Assembly: GCA_005800405.1 (NCBI GenBank)
Contig: SYFN01000175.1
Location: forward strand, 1 to 21,724
Length of the DNA: 21,724 bases
Source of the DNA: Burkholderiales bacterium
Lineage (GTDB): Bacteria > Pseudomonadota > Gammaproteobacteria > Burkholderiales > Burkholderiaceae_D
Direction of reading: 5' to 3'
Numbering within the stretch: position 1 is the first letter of the stretch; the number at the start of each line of letters is the position of its first letter. Made by a program: the position numbers and the translations under genes. The notes under the pieces are model-generated. The model was not told where the DNA came from, did not search any database, and worked only from the letters and a program-made list of their open reading frames with translations. Below, in pieces: positions 6,306 to 10,996 of this stretch.

Positions 6306-7463
6306 TCAGCGCACGACAGGTGAATCCGTGACGATGCGGGGAGTGATGAAGATTAGCAGCTCGGCCTGGTCCCGTGTACGACGCGTGCTGCGGAACAGGC
6401 GACCTAAGACCGGAATGTCTCCCAGCACTGGCACCTTGAGCTCGCTGTCAATTTCGGTCTGGGTAAAAATTCCGCCCAGGACGACCGTACCGCCAATCTC
6501 CACCTGCACATTGGTTTTAACGTGCTTGGTATTGATGGCGAAGCTGGAGCCCACGGCAACACCTCGGGAATCTTTGGCGACATCGACGACCAGAATCACA
6601 TTGCCATCGGGCGTAATCTGAGGGGTGACCTCCAGTTTGAGATTGGCTTTTTTGAATTGAACCGAAGTCGCGCCGCTACTGGTCGTCTGTTGAAATGGAA
6701 TTTCTTCGCCCTGCTCGATCAGCGCCGGCTGCTGATCGGCGGTGACCACGCGTGGACTGGAGATGATTTTTCCTTTACCGTCGGCTTCCAGTGCGGACAG
6801 CTCAAGGTTCAGGAAGCGATTTGCATTGGCAGAGAAAAGGCTGATTCCCATACTCGCTGGTGCTGCGCCATTGATTGACGCTGCGGGTAAATTAACAAAC
6901 TGCGTGTTCGGCACGAAAGATTGCTGAGTCACGGTAGTCTGTGCGGTCTGCTCGCCCACACCCAGATAATTTCCGCTGACCGCAAGCCGACTGGATCCAG
7001 GCAAATTGATGCCAGGCGCTGCACCACGTGCACCACGAAGATCGGCAAAGCCGAGCTTTACACCCAGACTTTTGCTGAACGTATCATCTGCCTCGGCGAT
7101 ACGGGCTTCGATCATGACCTGACGTGTGGGTATGTCGGTCAGCTGTATCAGTTTGCGTACTTCTTCCAGACGGCTGGGTGTATCGGTCACGAACAGTTTG
7201 TTGGTGCGCGGCTCGGCAGATGCGCTGCCACGACATGACAAAATACTGCCACGCCCTACCTGACCATCCAGACCGAAGACCTGACGAAAAGCATCAGCCT
7301 TTTGATAATTCAACTGGAAGGTCTCGGTGATCAATGGCTCCAGCTCAGATATCTGCGCGCGCTGCTCCAGCTCCAGCCTTTCCTTGGTCAGCAATTCATC
7401 CTTGGGTGCGATCCAGAGCACATTACCGTTACGCCGCATATTCAGGCCCCGCGCCTGCATCAC
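6306..7463 (-). CDS. pilQ: PilQ C-terminal fragment: secretin core
   Basis: The 3' part, 385 residues from the first available ATG after the amber codon. It holds the rest of STN (MQARGLNMRRNGNVLWIAPKDELL), the N1 secretin domain (ETFQLNYQKADAF to about TDIPTRQVMIEARI) and the whole secretin barrel (IEQGEEIPFQQ, LEVTPQITPDGNVIL, VEIGGTVVLGGIF, VPVLGDIPVLGRLFR, LLIFITPRIV). Alone it has no signal peptide and the restart ATG has no clear Shine-Dalgarno sequence, so an exported secretin from this piece alone is improbable. All motifs are intact, with no further stops or shifts over 389 codons after the TAG. Confidence 0.75.
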   Translation of the reverse strand: MMQARGLNMRRNGNVLWIAPKDELLTKERLELEQRAQISELEPLITETFQLNYQKADAFRQVFGLDGQVGRGSILSCRGSASAEPRTNKLFVTDTPSRLEEVRKLIQLTDIPTRQVMIEARIAEADDTFSKSLGVKLGFADLRGARGAAPGINLPGSSRLAVSGNYLGVGEQTAQTTVTQQSFVPNTQFVNLPAASINGAAPASMGISLFSANANRFLNLELSALEADGKGKIISSPRVVTADQQPALIEQGEEIPFQQTTSSGATSVQFKKANLKLEVTPQITPDGNVILVVDVAKDSRGVAVGSSFAINTKHVKTNVQVEIGGTVVLGGIFTQTEIDSELKVPVLGDIPVLGRLFRSTRRTRDQAELLIFITPRIVTDSPVVR

Positions 7464-7475
7464 AATATCGAGTGC

Positions 7476-8420
7476 CTAATCCCAAGGGACATCCTTTAAC
7501 CTGAGCGTGAGATTGCCGCTCACGCTATCGCTAGCGACCACATTGAGTCCGGTGAAATCTGCAATCACCTGTAGCAATGCGCGCACTTCGATATTTTGAA
7601 AACTCATCGACAGCTTGTCACCACGATAGCCACGATTACTTGCCGCCGTTTTGCCATCATCCGGATTGACAGATCGTACTTCGAGCACCAGTCGTCGATC
7701 AGTCTGCCAAGCCAGATGCTCCCACTGGCCACGCGGCTCAATCAGCATGCGCACCGTGTCACCGTCTGCGCGTGTGGTGATGAATCGTACCGGAGTACCG
7801 AAATCGGCCACATCGAGTTTACGCCGAAGTACTTCGGGCAAACTGGTTTTCATGAAATCGACGATCAGTGACTGACCCTGACGGCGCACATCAATAGATG
7901 ATTGCGTTCTTGCCAAATCAATGATGATACGCCTGGCATCGCCATCACCCCGTCGAAAATCCATATCCACAATCGCGTTCTTTTCTGTCACTAGGCTTGC
8001 GGCACGTGCGCTTCGGTCTGAACCCACTTTATCGTCAGCCAGGGTCACCGTCAGCGTCTGTCCCGTCAAGCGCATGCTGAACTGCTGTGGACGCTTGAGA
8101 TTGAGCACAATACGCGTACGTCCTGCGGCTTGCACAAGATCGGCGTAACGCAGCTCACCGGCATCGAATACTCGCCGGGAATGCCCGGTGGCATTCAACG
8201 TGTCCGAAAAATCAAGCACGATTCTTGGCGGGTTGGCGGTAGAAAAGCTACCCGGCATTACAGCAGGTGCCTGGCGCATGGGAATACGCAAAGACAACAC
8301 CGATCCGGAATGACTGACCTCGATACCCGTGATCGCATTGAGCTCCGCCCTTGCGTTCGTGATCATGATCATTACGCAGCCCGTGAACCAGCGCCTTGCT
8401 TTTAACGTCACTGCATTCAT
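7476..8420 (-). CDS. pilQ: PilQ N-terminal fragment: signal peptide, two AMIN domains, partial STN
   Basis: The 5' part of the broken pilQ encodes 314 residues before the TAG. A signal peptide with a likely cleavage after NARA (about residue 24) is followed by a first AMIN domain (ITGIEVSHSG to about VTLADDK) and a second (IVDMDFRRG to about LVLEVRSV). These domains bind peptidoglycan or periplasmic partners. The STN/N0 domain begins at LSMSFQNIEVRALLQVIADFTGLNVV and is cut after KDVPWD. If translation stops here, the product would be a soluble periplasmic peptide with no secretin barrel. The ATG at 8420, not the TTG three bases earlier, has a good ribosome binding site. Confidence 0.8.
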   Translation of the reverse strand: MNAVTLKARRWFTGCVMIMITNARAELNAITGIEVSHSGSVLSLRIPMRQAPAVMPGSFSTANPPRIVLDFSDTLNATGHSRRVFDAGELRYADLVQAAGRTRIVLNLKRPQQFSMRLTGQTLTVTLADDKVGSDRSARAASLVTEKNAIVDMDFRRGDGDARRIIIDLARTQSSIDVRRQGQSLIVDFMKTSLPEVLRRKLDVADFGTPVRFITTRADGDTVRMLIEPRGQWEHLAWQTDRRLVLEVRSVNPDDGKTAASNRGYRGDKLSMSFQNIEVRALLQVIADFTGLNVVASDSVSGNLTLRLKDVPWD

Positions 8421-8986
8421 CAACGTTTCTCCTGCAATACTAGTCGCGCGCGTCGCTTGGCCCAGGTATTGCCAGCATCCTGCACCATTTCTTCGATTTC
8501 GATGGCGCCTTCGCTAATCCCTATCACTTTGCCCATATCAGGTCCGAGGTGACTACCCAGATGCACCTGATGAATGACTTTGTCCGCTTCAACCAGCACA
8601 ACCACCTGTCCCTGACGGCGCATATTCCCCACCAGCCTCAGGTTATCCAGCGGAAAGGACTCCAGCGGCTCTCGCGCACGGCGCGTATCCGGTTGCAATC
8701 CGGTTGCGTTGAGCTCGGCAGTGAGGGATGCGGAAATTTTGTTAGCATCAAATGGGTCCATGCGGCCAGACGCTTGATAGTGAAACTCCTCGAGTCCCGG
8801 GCGCGGCGGCAAGTCAACTGGTACCGGGTGCGACTGCTGCCGGACCTCGCTCATCCAAGCCCGCAAATCATTTTCAGGTACTTCGCCGCAGCCATTTAGA
8901 AGGAAGCTGATCGGAACCAGTGTTTTTATCAAAATGATTACTGCGCTAGAGCGTGAAGAATGGCAAGGACCTTGCGGGTATTTCAT
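8420..8986 (-). CDS. pilP: type IV pilus assembly lipoprotein PilP
   Basis: A 188-residue inner-membrane-anchored lipoprotein that links the PilMNO platform to the PilQ secretin. The N-terminus has a hydrophobic stretch (AVIILIKTLVPISFLLNGC) ending in a lipobox LNGC, so the mature protein starts at that Cys. A proline-rich linker (HPVPVDLPPRPGLEEFHY) is followed by MDPFD and the C-terminal beta domain (LRLVGNMRRQGQVVVLVEAD, VHLGSHLGPDMGKVIGI). Length is slightly above the usual 170-180 because of a longer N-terminus. The start overlaps the pilO stop by 4 bases and the stop overlaps the pilQ ATG by 1 base. This member of the operon looks intact. Confidence 0.9.
   Translation of the reverse strand: MKYPQGPCHSSRSSAVIILIKTLVPISFLLNGCGEVPENDLRAWMSEVRQQSHPVPVDLPPRPGLEEFHYQASGRMDPFDANKISASLTAELNATGLQPDTRRAREPLESFPLDNLRLVGNMRRQGQVVVLVEADKVIHQVHLGSHLGPDMGKVIGISEGAIEIEEMVQDAGNTWAKRRARLVLQEKR
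8429..8432 (-). promoter_or_regulatory. Shine-Dalgarno site for pilQ
   Basis: GGAG on the minus strand inside the last codons of pilP, 8 bases before the pilQ ATG (8420). It favours ATG 8420 over TTG 8423. Confidence 0.65.
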
Positions 8987-9438
8987 TTATTTTCCCGCCT
9001 CTTGCTATCTTCGGCTGTCTTTCTTTGGGATGCCATTTCAGCCTTGTCGAGGTAACGAAAAGTATGAATCACACCCTCAAAACTCTGCAGTCCTTCGCGC
9101 AACTGGGTAATCGCTTTGCTGTCGATCGTGACGGTGCGCTGCAAATTGGCGATATCACTCGTAAAACTCGCCAGCGCATGATAATTACCCGTGAGTTTGA
9201 TTTCGATCGGTAACTCTGCATAAAAATCATGCAATCTGACCTGACCCGAGGCCAGCGCCTCCCATTGTGCGGTCCACACCAGCCACCCCCCTGACATGAT
9301 GACCATCAGCGAAACTCCAAGCGCGCATAACAGCCGGGGAGCGGTAGGCCACGTACTCGGATGCCGACCTTGCAAGCCGTGAAACTGACTCGCAACAAGC
9401 TGCCAGTCGAGAGGCGTGCGACGTTGCATGGATATCAT
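8983..9438 (-). CDS. pilO: type IV pilus inner-membrane protein PilO, internally shortened
   Basis: A 151-residue PilO-like protein; PilO is normally about 200-220 residues. It has the N-terminal cytoplasmic segment (FHGLQGRHPSTWPTAPR), one membrane helix (about 36-57) and the conserved C-terminal ferredoxin-like segment (DFYAELPIEIKLTGNYHALASFTSDIA, then TFRYLDKAE). After ALASGQ near residue 66 it jumps straight to VRLHDFYAELP. The periplasmic coiled coil and first part of the globular domain that usually lie between (roughly 65-70 residues) are absent, with the frame kept. The DNA at the seam carries a tandem GGTCAGGTCA. The ATG at 9438 overlaps by 4 bases the stop of the restored pilN frame; its stop overlaps the pilP start by 4 bases. 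Confidence 0.85.
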   Translation of the reverse strand: MISMQRRTPLDWQLVASQFHGLQGRHPSTWPTAPRLLCALGVSLMVIMSGGWLVWTAQWEALASGQVRLHDFYAELPIEIKLTGNYHALASFTSDIANLQRTVTIDSKAITQLREGLQSFEGVIHTFRYLDKAEMASQRKTAEDSKRRENK

Positions 9439-9509
9439 GGGTGACTGCCCCCGGGTGGCGCAGCAATAGCCACATTGAATTCATAAATTTTCCTCGCTTC
9501 TTTTCCCTA
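9435..9509 (-). other. pilN: amber codon in pilN and in-frame continuation encoding the missing PilN C-terminus
   Basis: The codon at 9509-9507 is TAG. Continuing in the same frame gives 23 sense codons (GKEARKIYEFNVAIAAPP and then GGSHP) and a TGA at 9437-9435. The segment KIYEFNVAI resembles the last strand usually found in PilN. The TGA overlaps the pilO ATG (9438-9436) as ATGA, the junction also seen at pilM/pilN and pilO/pilP. The ancestral pilN therefore very probably spanned 9435-10001 (188 codons plus stop), and the TAG is an acquired or read-through codon. Confidence 0.78.
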
Positions 9510-10001
9510 GCCAAGGCTGGTGGCCTTGATCTCGACGAGCTCGGCTTTTCCAAGCCAGGGAGATGATTGCGACAGATTGTGTAGTAATTCAGAAACACGT
9601 GCATTCGACTGCGCAAGCCCCGTCAGGACAAGATGGTCTGTCTGTTTGATTGACTTGAGCGCGACACCGGAGGGTACGCGCGTGGCGAGCTCATCAAGTA
9701 AATGGACTGGCCGGGCTCGACCGGATTGCAGACTTTCAACCGCATGCTGCCTGGCCCTGAGGGCATCGATATCCTGGCGCAGTCCTTTGATTTCTCGTAA
9801 TCGGTTATCGAGAAGCCTGTTTTTGGACTGAAGTAAGGTACTGCGACTGTGCTGCGTTGACAGTTGTGCGGCATTCACCGCGCTGACGATCAAGACCACC
9901 ATCAGCCCGCACAATGCCGACAGAATCAGCAGGCTATTGAAAAAGCGCTCTCGCTCACGGCGCTGCGCTTCCCGCCATGGCAGCAAATTGAAGGAAATCA
10001 T
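9507..10001 (-). CDS. pilN: type IV pilus inner-membrane protein PilN, truncated by an amber codon
   Basis: Encodes 164 residues up to a TAG. PilN is a bitopic inner-membrane protein whose short cytoplasmic N-terminus docks into PilM and whose periplasmic part pairs with PilO. The PilM-binding motif is visible as ISFNLLPWREAQRR (residues 2-15). One membrane helix spans about 22-44, a coiled coil about 48-90, and the ferredoxin-like domain follows (HLLDELATRVPSGVALKSI, LTGLAQSNARVSELLHNL, SSPWLGKAELVEIKA). It stops at ATSLG, about 23 residues short of the usual end; those residues are encoded in frame after the TAG. The ATG at 10001 overlaps the pilM stop by 4 bases. Confidence 0.88.
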   Translation of the reverse strand: MISFNLLPWREAQRRERERFFNSLLILSALCGLMVVLIVSAVNAAQLSTQHSRSTLLQSKNRLLDNRLREIKGLRQDIDALRARQHAVESLQSGRARPVHLLDELATRVPSGVALKSIKQTDHLVLTGLAQSNARVSELLHNLSQSSPWLGKAELVEIKATSLG

Positions 10002-10996
10002 GTTGAAAAGCTCCGCAGTGCAAGACTACAGGCAACCAAAAAAGCGGGCGCATCCTCACGCAGCTGAACATCCATTGACGGCGCATGCATGCACGCAAAC
10101 GGATCGGGTAGTGAGCAGGGTATGCCCACTTGGTGCTCGACGAATGTGGCAAGATCAGCGCCGAGTGCCTGAATACTGCCGGCAACATAGAGGTGTGCAA
10201 CACGGGAATGCCGTGTCGATGTCGAGAAAAGCTGCAAAGCCCGTGTGAGTTCTTGGCAAATCGCTTCTCTGATCGACTCCATCGCAGCACGCGATTTTTC
10301 CTGATCGAATCTAGGTAAGGATAGGCCCATTTCACGCTCAAAAATCACTAGGCCATTGAGCATGACGTAGCAATGACTCCCATCAGTGCATAACTGCAGC
10401 AACGCGACTGGTTGGTTGTGATGCGTATCGCGGTCCGAATCGAGCAGCCCCAGCGACGCTGTCATTACCTGAGATTCGATATCGATCACCAGTGGGCGCA
10501 ATCCCATGGTTTCGGCCAGCGTGAATCTTTCATCAATCCGCTCCTTGCGCGCAGCCACCAACATCACGTCTACGTAACCCTCATGGGTCGCCGAGGGACC
10601 TACCGTGGCGAAATCAAGGCTGATGTCGTCCAGCGAGAATGGCAGCGTCTGACTCGCCTCAGCCTCGACCTGCATTTCCAGTTCCTCGTCATACATACTG
10701 GCAGGGAGGGTCAGCTTTTTTTTTATGACCGTACCAGAGGGCAACGCCATAGCCGCCGTTCTCAAGCGCGGTCCACTGCGCTTGAGCGTACGGCGCAATG
10801 ATTCTGTGAGAAGCTCCATCTGCGAAAAGCTTCCGTCACGAAAAGTACCCGCTGGCACAGACTCTTGGGCGCAGTGTGCTACCCGAAAATTTTTTCCCTC
10901 ACGAACGAGTTCCATGATGCGTATGCCTGCCGGGCTGACGTCGATGCCCAATACCGGTGTGTGATGGCGACGAAACCATGACCTCACAGAAAACAT
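9998..10996 (-). CDS. pilM: type IV pilus assembly ATPase-fold protein PilM, shortened
   Basis: A 332-residue actin-like (ASKHA) cytoplasmic protein that binds the PilN N-terminus and anchors the pilus alignment complex. It starts with VLGIDVSPAGIRIMEL (phosphate-1 motif) and continues with KRSGPRLRTAAMALPSGTVIKKKLTLP, DEELEMQVEAEASQTLPF and DVMLVAARKERID. Compared with the usual 350-360 residues, the loop after EREMGL runs directly to QEKSRAAMESIREAICQELTRAL, about 20-25 residues short. The second phosphate motif, normally VDIGA-like, reads LLQLCTDG, so ATP binding may be weak. The C-terminus ACSLALRSF is conserved. The ATG at 10996 has GGAG upstream. First gene of the operon, divergent from mrcA, the usual arrangement. 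Confidence 0.88.
   Translation of the reverse strand: MFSVRSWFRRHHTPVLGIDVSPAGIRIMELVREGKNFRVAHCAQESVPAGTFRDGSFSQMELLTESLRRTLKRSGPRLRTAAMALPSGTVIKKKLTLPASMYDEELEMQVEAEASQTLPFSLDDISLDFATVGPSATHEGYVDVMLVAARKERIDERFTLAETMGLRPLVIDIESQVMTASLGLLDSDRDTHHNQPVALLQLCTDGSHCYVMLNGLVIFEREMGLSLPRFDQEKSRAAMESIREAICQELTRALQLFSTSTRHSRVAHLYVAGSIQALGADLATFVEHQVGIPCSLPDPFACMHAPSMDVQLREDAPAFLVACSLALRSFST

Follow-up and report, generated by a model that had tools for sequence, protein, structure and literature searches.

Type IVa pili require PilQ for crossing the outer membrane and PilB for extension of the pilus. Loss of type IV pili through gene decay is already known, and the case described here is ordinary in kind. 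Aeromonas salmonicida A449 reportedly carries frameshifted genes or gene deletions in all three of its type IV pili (PMC2556355); A449 is a fish pathogen with an isolate genome, whereas the DNA analysed here comes from an environmental bin in which T2SS genes are damaged as well. Xanthomonas fuscans 4834-R resembles the present case in being a natural strain with a broken pilQ, there by a frameshift, but differs in that a single gene is reported as affected, and the pilus is argued in that study to be possibly still functional (PMC3826837). In a study of phage-selected Pseudomonas aeruginosa mutants (PMC13170266), pilQ reportedly carries a nonsense mutation, as here, and pilT a frameshift; those mutants arose in the laboratory, whereas the decay described below is natural and spans several genes. 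The gene itself corresponds to PilQ of the type IVa pilMNOPQ operon, with the same gene order, the same AMIN, Secretin_N and Secretin domains and 90% identity to an intact relative, but the copy is interrupted by a TAG codon and its neighbours pilN and pilO are damaged.

The stretch of DNA analysed (the window, 21,724 nucleotides) is the entire contig C139 of an assembly, termed G000 here, that comprises 2.16 Mb in 284 contigs and is 71% complete. Its public relatives are betaproteobacteria, the nearest being Oxalobacteraceae metagenome bins; one locus (L064) shares 93% identity with the C-terminal piece of the window's pilQ. The DNA thus most likely belongs to an environmental, uncultured member of the Oxalobacteraceae. 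No pilQ copy from the same species, intact or broken, was seen among the relatives compared. No publication on the genus was found by title among the matches listed for literature on Oxalobacteraceae, freshwater type IV pili and pseudogenes.

The in-frame TAG lies on the minus strand at 7476..7478 (7478-7476 in reading direction), flanked by RLKDVPWD before and ALDIVMQARGL after. The frame is open for 345 codons upstream of the TAG (314 counted from the ATG at 8420) and for 389 codons downstream. The N-terminal piece (7479..8420, minus strand, 314 codons) contains the AMIN region, with an additional N0 match below the Pfam cut-off, and the C-terminal piece (6306..7475, minus strand, 389 codons plus stop) contains Secretin_N and Secretin, assigned, like the AMIN region, by Pfam and codon alignment. 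Thus, all three domains expected of PilQ are present in a pilMNOPQ operon, and what the gene lacks is a single unbroken frame. The initial annotation had reported this stop and an intact secretin part downstream, both of which were recovered here, and had expected glutamine at the stop position. The alignment to PilQ of relatives that it called for confirmed the glutamine: in the codon alignment, 75 of 80 public genome_contigs loci carry Gln and the other 5 His, and the position is Gln in all 19 same-genus genomes in which it was readable. These tallies count each locus once, with 2 of the 19 genomes also among the 80; of the 121 loci in which the codon was read, 3 represent the window, and the majority of same-genus genomes contribute two entries. 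With an intact relative as query, 724 of 724 residues aligned to the window with one TAG inside the match. The same query against 21 same-genus genomes gave a long stop-free pilQ match in 17, one TAG in G000 and one TAA in a second species, G001. In G017, the gene is divided between two contig ends. In G009, the query matches other secretins only, and pilP ends 18 bases before the contig end; since the contig ends there, the missing pilQ was not scored as a loss.

A gene split into two cooperating pieces by a restart after the TAG, or a reversible switching-off of the pilus, could in principle retain function. GTG and ATG codons lie 5 and 6 codons past the TAG, and the X. fuscans strain reportedly combines a frameshifted pilQ with an apparently working pilus (PMC3826837). 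Yet a separately made C-terminal piece would have no signal peptide and would not be expected in the outer membrane, no split like that of the window occurs in any relative whose codon at this position was read, and pilN, pilO and pilT are damaged too. This explanation is therefore very improbable. The TAG is most likely real, and we assign a probability of about 0.86 to the reading that it is a true nonsense mutation, belonging to a set of recent lesions that have inactivated the type IVa pilus in this species of Oxalobacteraceae. The pilQ frame is broken where relatives are intact, and further lesions lie in the same machine, in pilN, pilO, pilT and presumably pilB.

The remaining genes of the operon, all on the minus strand, bear on this reading. 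Two of them, pilP (8420..8986) and pilM (9998..10996), are open frames in which Pfam and comparison with relatives revealed no lesion. The pilO gene (8983..9438) carries an in-frame deletion of 216 bp (72 codons), as seen by Pfam and by alignment to the relative G002, along which the window aligns over its full length except for these 216 bp. The junction lies at approximately 9240-9248, where nine bases fit both edges. PilO is accordingly 151 residues long in the window versus 226 in G002, and its Pfam match begins at profile position 73, compared with position 2 in the intact PilO of G006. Among loci with a PilO match, some of which contain just part of the gene, a two-segment match was found only in the window and its own copies (L084 and L104). 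In pilN, an in-frame TAG (9507..9509, read 9509-9507) removes 23 codons and shortens the gene, identified by Pfam and relatives, to 164 codons (9507..10001). Nine of the nine relatives printed have a sense codon and a continuing frame at this position, eight of them Gln, and the window's own frame stays open for 23 more codons beyond the TAG to the next stop. The alternative that G006 had instead lost a stop was rejected, as the nine relatives place the lesion in the window. Three of the five pil genes of the window are thus damaged, versus none of the ten other genes of the window that were aligned with their G006 counterparts (p = 0.02); the long window gene for PBP1A is free of stops in 21 of 21 genomes. 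The absence of accumulated decay noted in the initial annotation accordingly holds within pilQ but not for the operon. Likewise, its proposal that type IV pili were abolished by a very recent nonsense mutation stands as the best-supported option, although not as a single event, given the lesions in pilN, pilO, pilT and probably pilB.

Lesions are also present on other contigs of G000. In pilT, an in-frame TAA replaces residue 303 of 347 and removes only the last 45 residues. The first 65 codons of pilB are followed by a different sequence at the start of contig C247. Contigs C249 and C36 match the same relative sequence as C247 at equal distance from their starts, and the repeated sequence weakly resembles the start of a transposase (PF01527, E = 0.08, below the cut-off); it may represent an insertion sequence. 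That pilC and the greater part of pilB and pilD are missing was not scored as loss, the assembly being 71% complete with contigs that end inside pilB and pilD. In the T2SS, gspL carries a TAA, gspJ and gspG a TAG each and gspM a frameshift, and small indels occur in gspF, with a frameshift at residue 35, and in gspN. No stop lies within the gspD and gspE matches of G000, the latter of which is cut by contig ends. Across the genus, gspL has a match in 19 of 21 genomes, two of them partial, and a stop in G000 alone. Among the Tad genes, tadA has a TAG at a distance of 100 bp from the end of its contig, cpaB has a TGA, and rcpA has a 327-bp gap relative to G006. Filament families were named by Pfam on the intact G006 copies, except for gspG, which is probably this gene by its motif, and gspJ, in which Pfam finds only the pilin N-methylation motif and whose name follows from its position. 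The gap in rcpA, the Tad secretin gene (L141 5661-5668, contig C146), has approximately eight bases that fit both edges; it resembles the pilO deletion, and both are multiples of three. In addition, gspN and gspD form one fused frame of approximately 1,000 codons in G000 (L140 1009-3999, contig C120) and two frames in G006. Genus-wide, the only T2SSE-family matches above the cut-off that contain stops are tadA of G000 and pilB and pilT of G001; three weaker matches, in G003, G004 and G008, each also contain a TAG.

Under the preferred reading of a decaying pilus, translation of pilQ would end after the AMIN region, at residue 314, so that the outer-membrane secretin would not be made. With PilO lacking half of its Pfam domain, the first half, and PilN its last 23 residues, the alignment complex would be damaged. 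The motor genes pilT and probably pilB are broken elsewhere, and the assembly also contains damaged T2SS and Tad genes. The pilO deletion is in frame, however, and the pilT stop lies near the end, so either alone might be tolerated. The reading presumes that the assembly is correct at each lesion site, and predicts that no pilus is produced and that selection on it was recently relaxed or reversed; any cause proposed for this is equally presumptive.

The initial annotation had also considered amber decoding, in which suppression or reassignment of the TAG would allow full-length PilQ to be produced. Both TAGs of the window's pil operon fall at positions that are mostly Gln in relatives, and the gspJ stop behaves alike. 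However, the same gene classes are also hit by TAA and TGA, the reference residues replaced include Gln, Glu, Tyr and Trp, and pilO and rcpA carry deletions. Three genes of the window terminate with a TAG common to relatives, so that TAG does not encode an amino acid throughout. Reassignment, an idea also raised by the in-frame TAG of tadA and dropped in view of the TAA, TGA, frameshift and deletion lesions, fails because TAG, TAA and TGA all serve as lesions and TAG ends normal genes. None of the five tRNA genes found reads TAG, a weak argument as the assembly lacks the majority of its tRNA genes. Amber decoding, suppression included, is thus extremely improbable.

The distribution of lesions was assessed by a census of 39 G000 contigs (318 kb) against 82 stretches of G006 (1.18 Mb), which yielded 106 comparable genes. 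A lesion was counted when it lay between 15% of the reference length (and at least residue 40) and 90%. Mid-gene lesions were found in 9 of 22 type IV filament genes versus 4 of 84 others (Fisher p = 6e-5), a comparison in which gene class was assigned once the lesions were known and in which lesions of one cluster may be non-independent. With the pilN stop and the non-filament ORF L251 left out, the counts are 8 of 22 versus 3 of 84 (p = 1e-4). Four of the census contigs had been picked for carrying a filament family rather than for lesions, with the tadA TAG already visible at that point. Stops nearer the gene ends, most of which resemble start-site differences, were left uncounted, as were a tadZ stop at residue 5, also present in G018, and a tadV stop at residue 14 in G018; the lesions in gspF, rcpA, gspN, gspG and pilB were found through other comparisons and stand outside the nine. 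The reverse census, in which G000 ORFs were sought in G006, flagged 2 of 24 filament-locus ORFs versus 1 of 84 others, and both of the former reflect G000 events, namely the pilO deletion and the gspN-gspD fusion. A reference-free scan for stops with open stretches on both sides, which lists many intergenic stops and served as a lead only, pointed to pilQ, pilT, gspG, gspL, gspJ, cpaB and a response regulator gene. The last, presumably a response regulator by its motif, carries an in-frame TAG (L182 6178, contig C267).

The census also bears on whether the TAG is a base-call or assembly error, in which case low coverage of the bin would have produced an incorrect consensus base and the organism would have an intact pilQ. 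Some assembly error is possible, because the bin is fragmented and 71% complete and 4 of 84 non-filament genes carry lesions: sodC, uvrD, a 132-residue ORF and an ORF that is broken in G006 as well (L251). Random hits, however, should follow gene length, yet in-frame stops number 7 in 6,921 filament codons versus 1 in 26,995 other codons (p = 1e-4). A 216-bp deletion in the same operon is no base-call error, and comparable lesions occur in the same genes of G001. An erroneous TAG is accordingly improbable. Stops, deletions and frameshifts are present in the assembly, absent from the relatives compared and concentrated in filament genes. Regarding the non-filament genes, uvrD has a 1-bp deletion relative to G006 that shifts the frame at approximately residue 514 of 716 (L180 6540-6720, contig C101), which, if real, could have raised the mutation rate in the lineage, and sodC, which encodes a Cu/Zn superoxide dismutase, is interrupted by an in-frame TAA at residue 89 of 197 (L138 4122, contig C15).

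To gauge the age of the loss, codon changes confined to a single branch were counted among G000, G006, G018 and G002. In the pil genes, amino-acid-changing and silent changes number 40 and 115 on the G000 branch, compared with 19/80, 22/102 and 16/109 on the others. The corresponding values for six control genes of the window are 32/191 versus 12/157, 24/242 and 18/200, and those for the Tad genes, which are not raised, are 52/236 versus 35/205 and 57/187. The amino-acid-changing excess on the G000 branch relative to G006, which would be a mark of relaxed selection, is not significant in the pil genes (p = 0.29) and reaches p = 0.02 in the controls (32 to 191 versus 12 to 157). This slight excess is unspecific to pil genes and may include a share of error, and its occurrence in the controls speaks for the error explanation. 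As changes on the G000 branch are mostly silent, the loss looks recent, and the counts suggest that selection along this branch was mostly purifying until recently.

The same lesions could also have been selected by phages that use the pilus as receptor, instead of following relaxed selection after a change of lifestyle. In the P. aeruginosa study, mutants with a pilQ nonsense mutation, a pilT frameshift or a pilB mutation reportedly emerged under selection by a phage that targets pili (PMC13170266), and the losses in G000 look recent, as such selection would have it. A single lesion would be enough to escape a phage, yet several pil genes are broken. Furthermore, the T2SS, which is not known as a pilus-phage receptor, is broken as well. 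We consider a phage cause unlikely. A shared cause can be proposed tentatively, as a possible but doubtful extension: the G000 lineage may be losing the type IVa pilus, the T2SS and the Tad machine together and recently, through a change in lifestyle or the loss of a shared part such as the prepilin peptidase PilD, in a genus that repeatedly discards surface-appendage machines, as pilQ and pilT in G001 and possible flhA breaks in G001, G009 and G020 would indicate.

A second case within the genus is provided by G001, which belongs to another species. Its pilQ has a TAA at residue 379 of the G002 protein, its pilT a frameshift and its pilB a TAG near the end; no stop was found in its pilM, pilN, pilO and pilP. 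Since the pilQ stop lies elsewhere in the gene than that of the window, it is a separate event. What seemed an isolated stop now points to the ongoing loss of an entire class of machines in a genus of uncultured Oxalobacteraceae. As selection seems to have been largely intact until recently, this genus could show pilus loss in progress, and phages, host association and open-water life are candidate drivers that could be separated within it. The interest of the case is moderate and lies in the decay covering three systems and recurring in the genus.

Two further observations concern these genomes. Of the flagellar export gene flhA, G001 has the C-terminal part alone (contig C34), and the gene is split over two different frames in G009 (C48) and G020 (C18); it was not found in G000 and G017, both of which are incomplete. 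The breaks hint that flagella have been lost more than once within the genus. Finally, in a region of G006 (L268 6000-15001), short stretches, approximately 30 to 230 bases in length, have matches at dozens of G000 sites (59 matches), which suggests a dispersed family of intergenic repeats.
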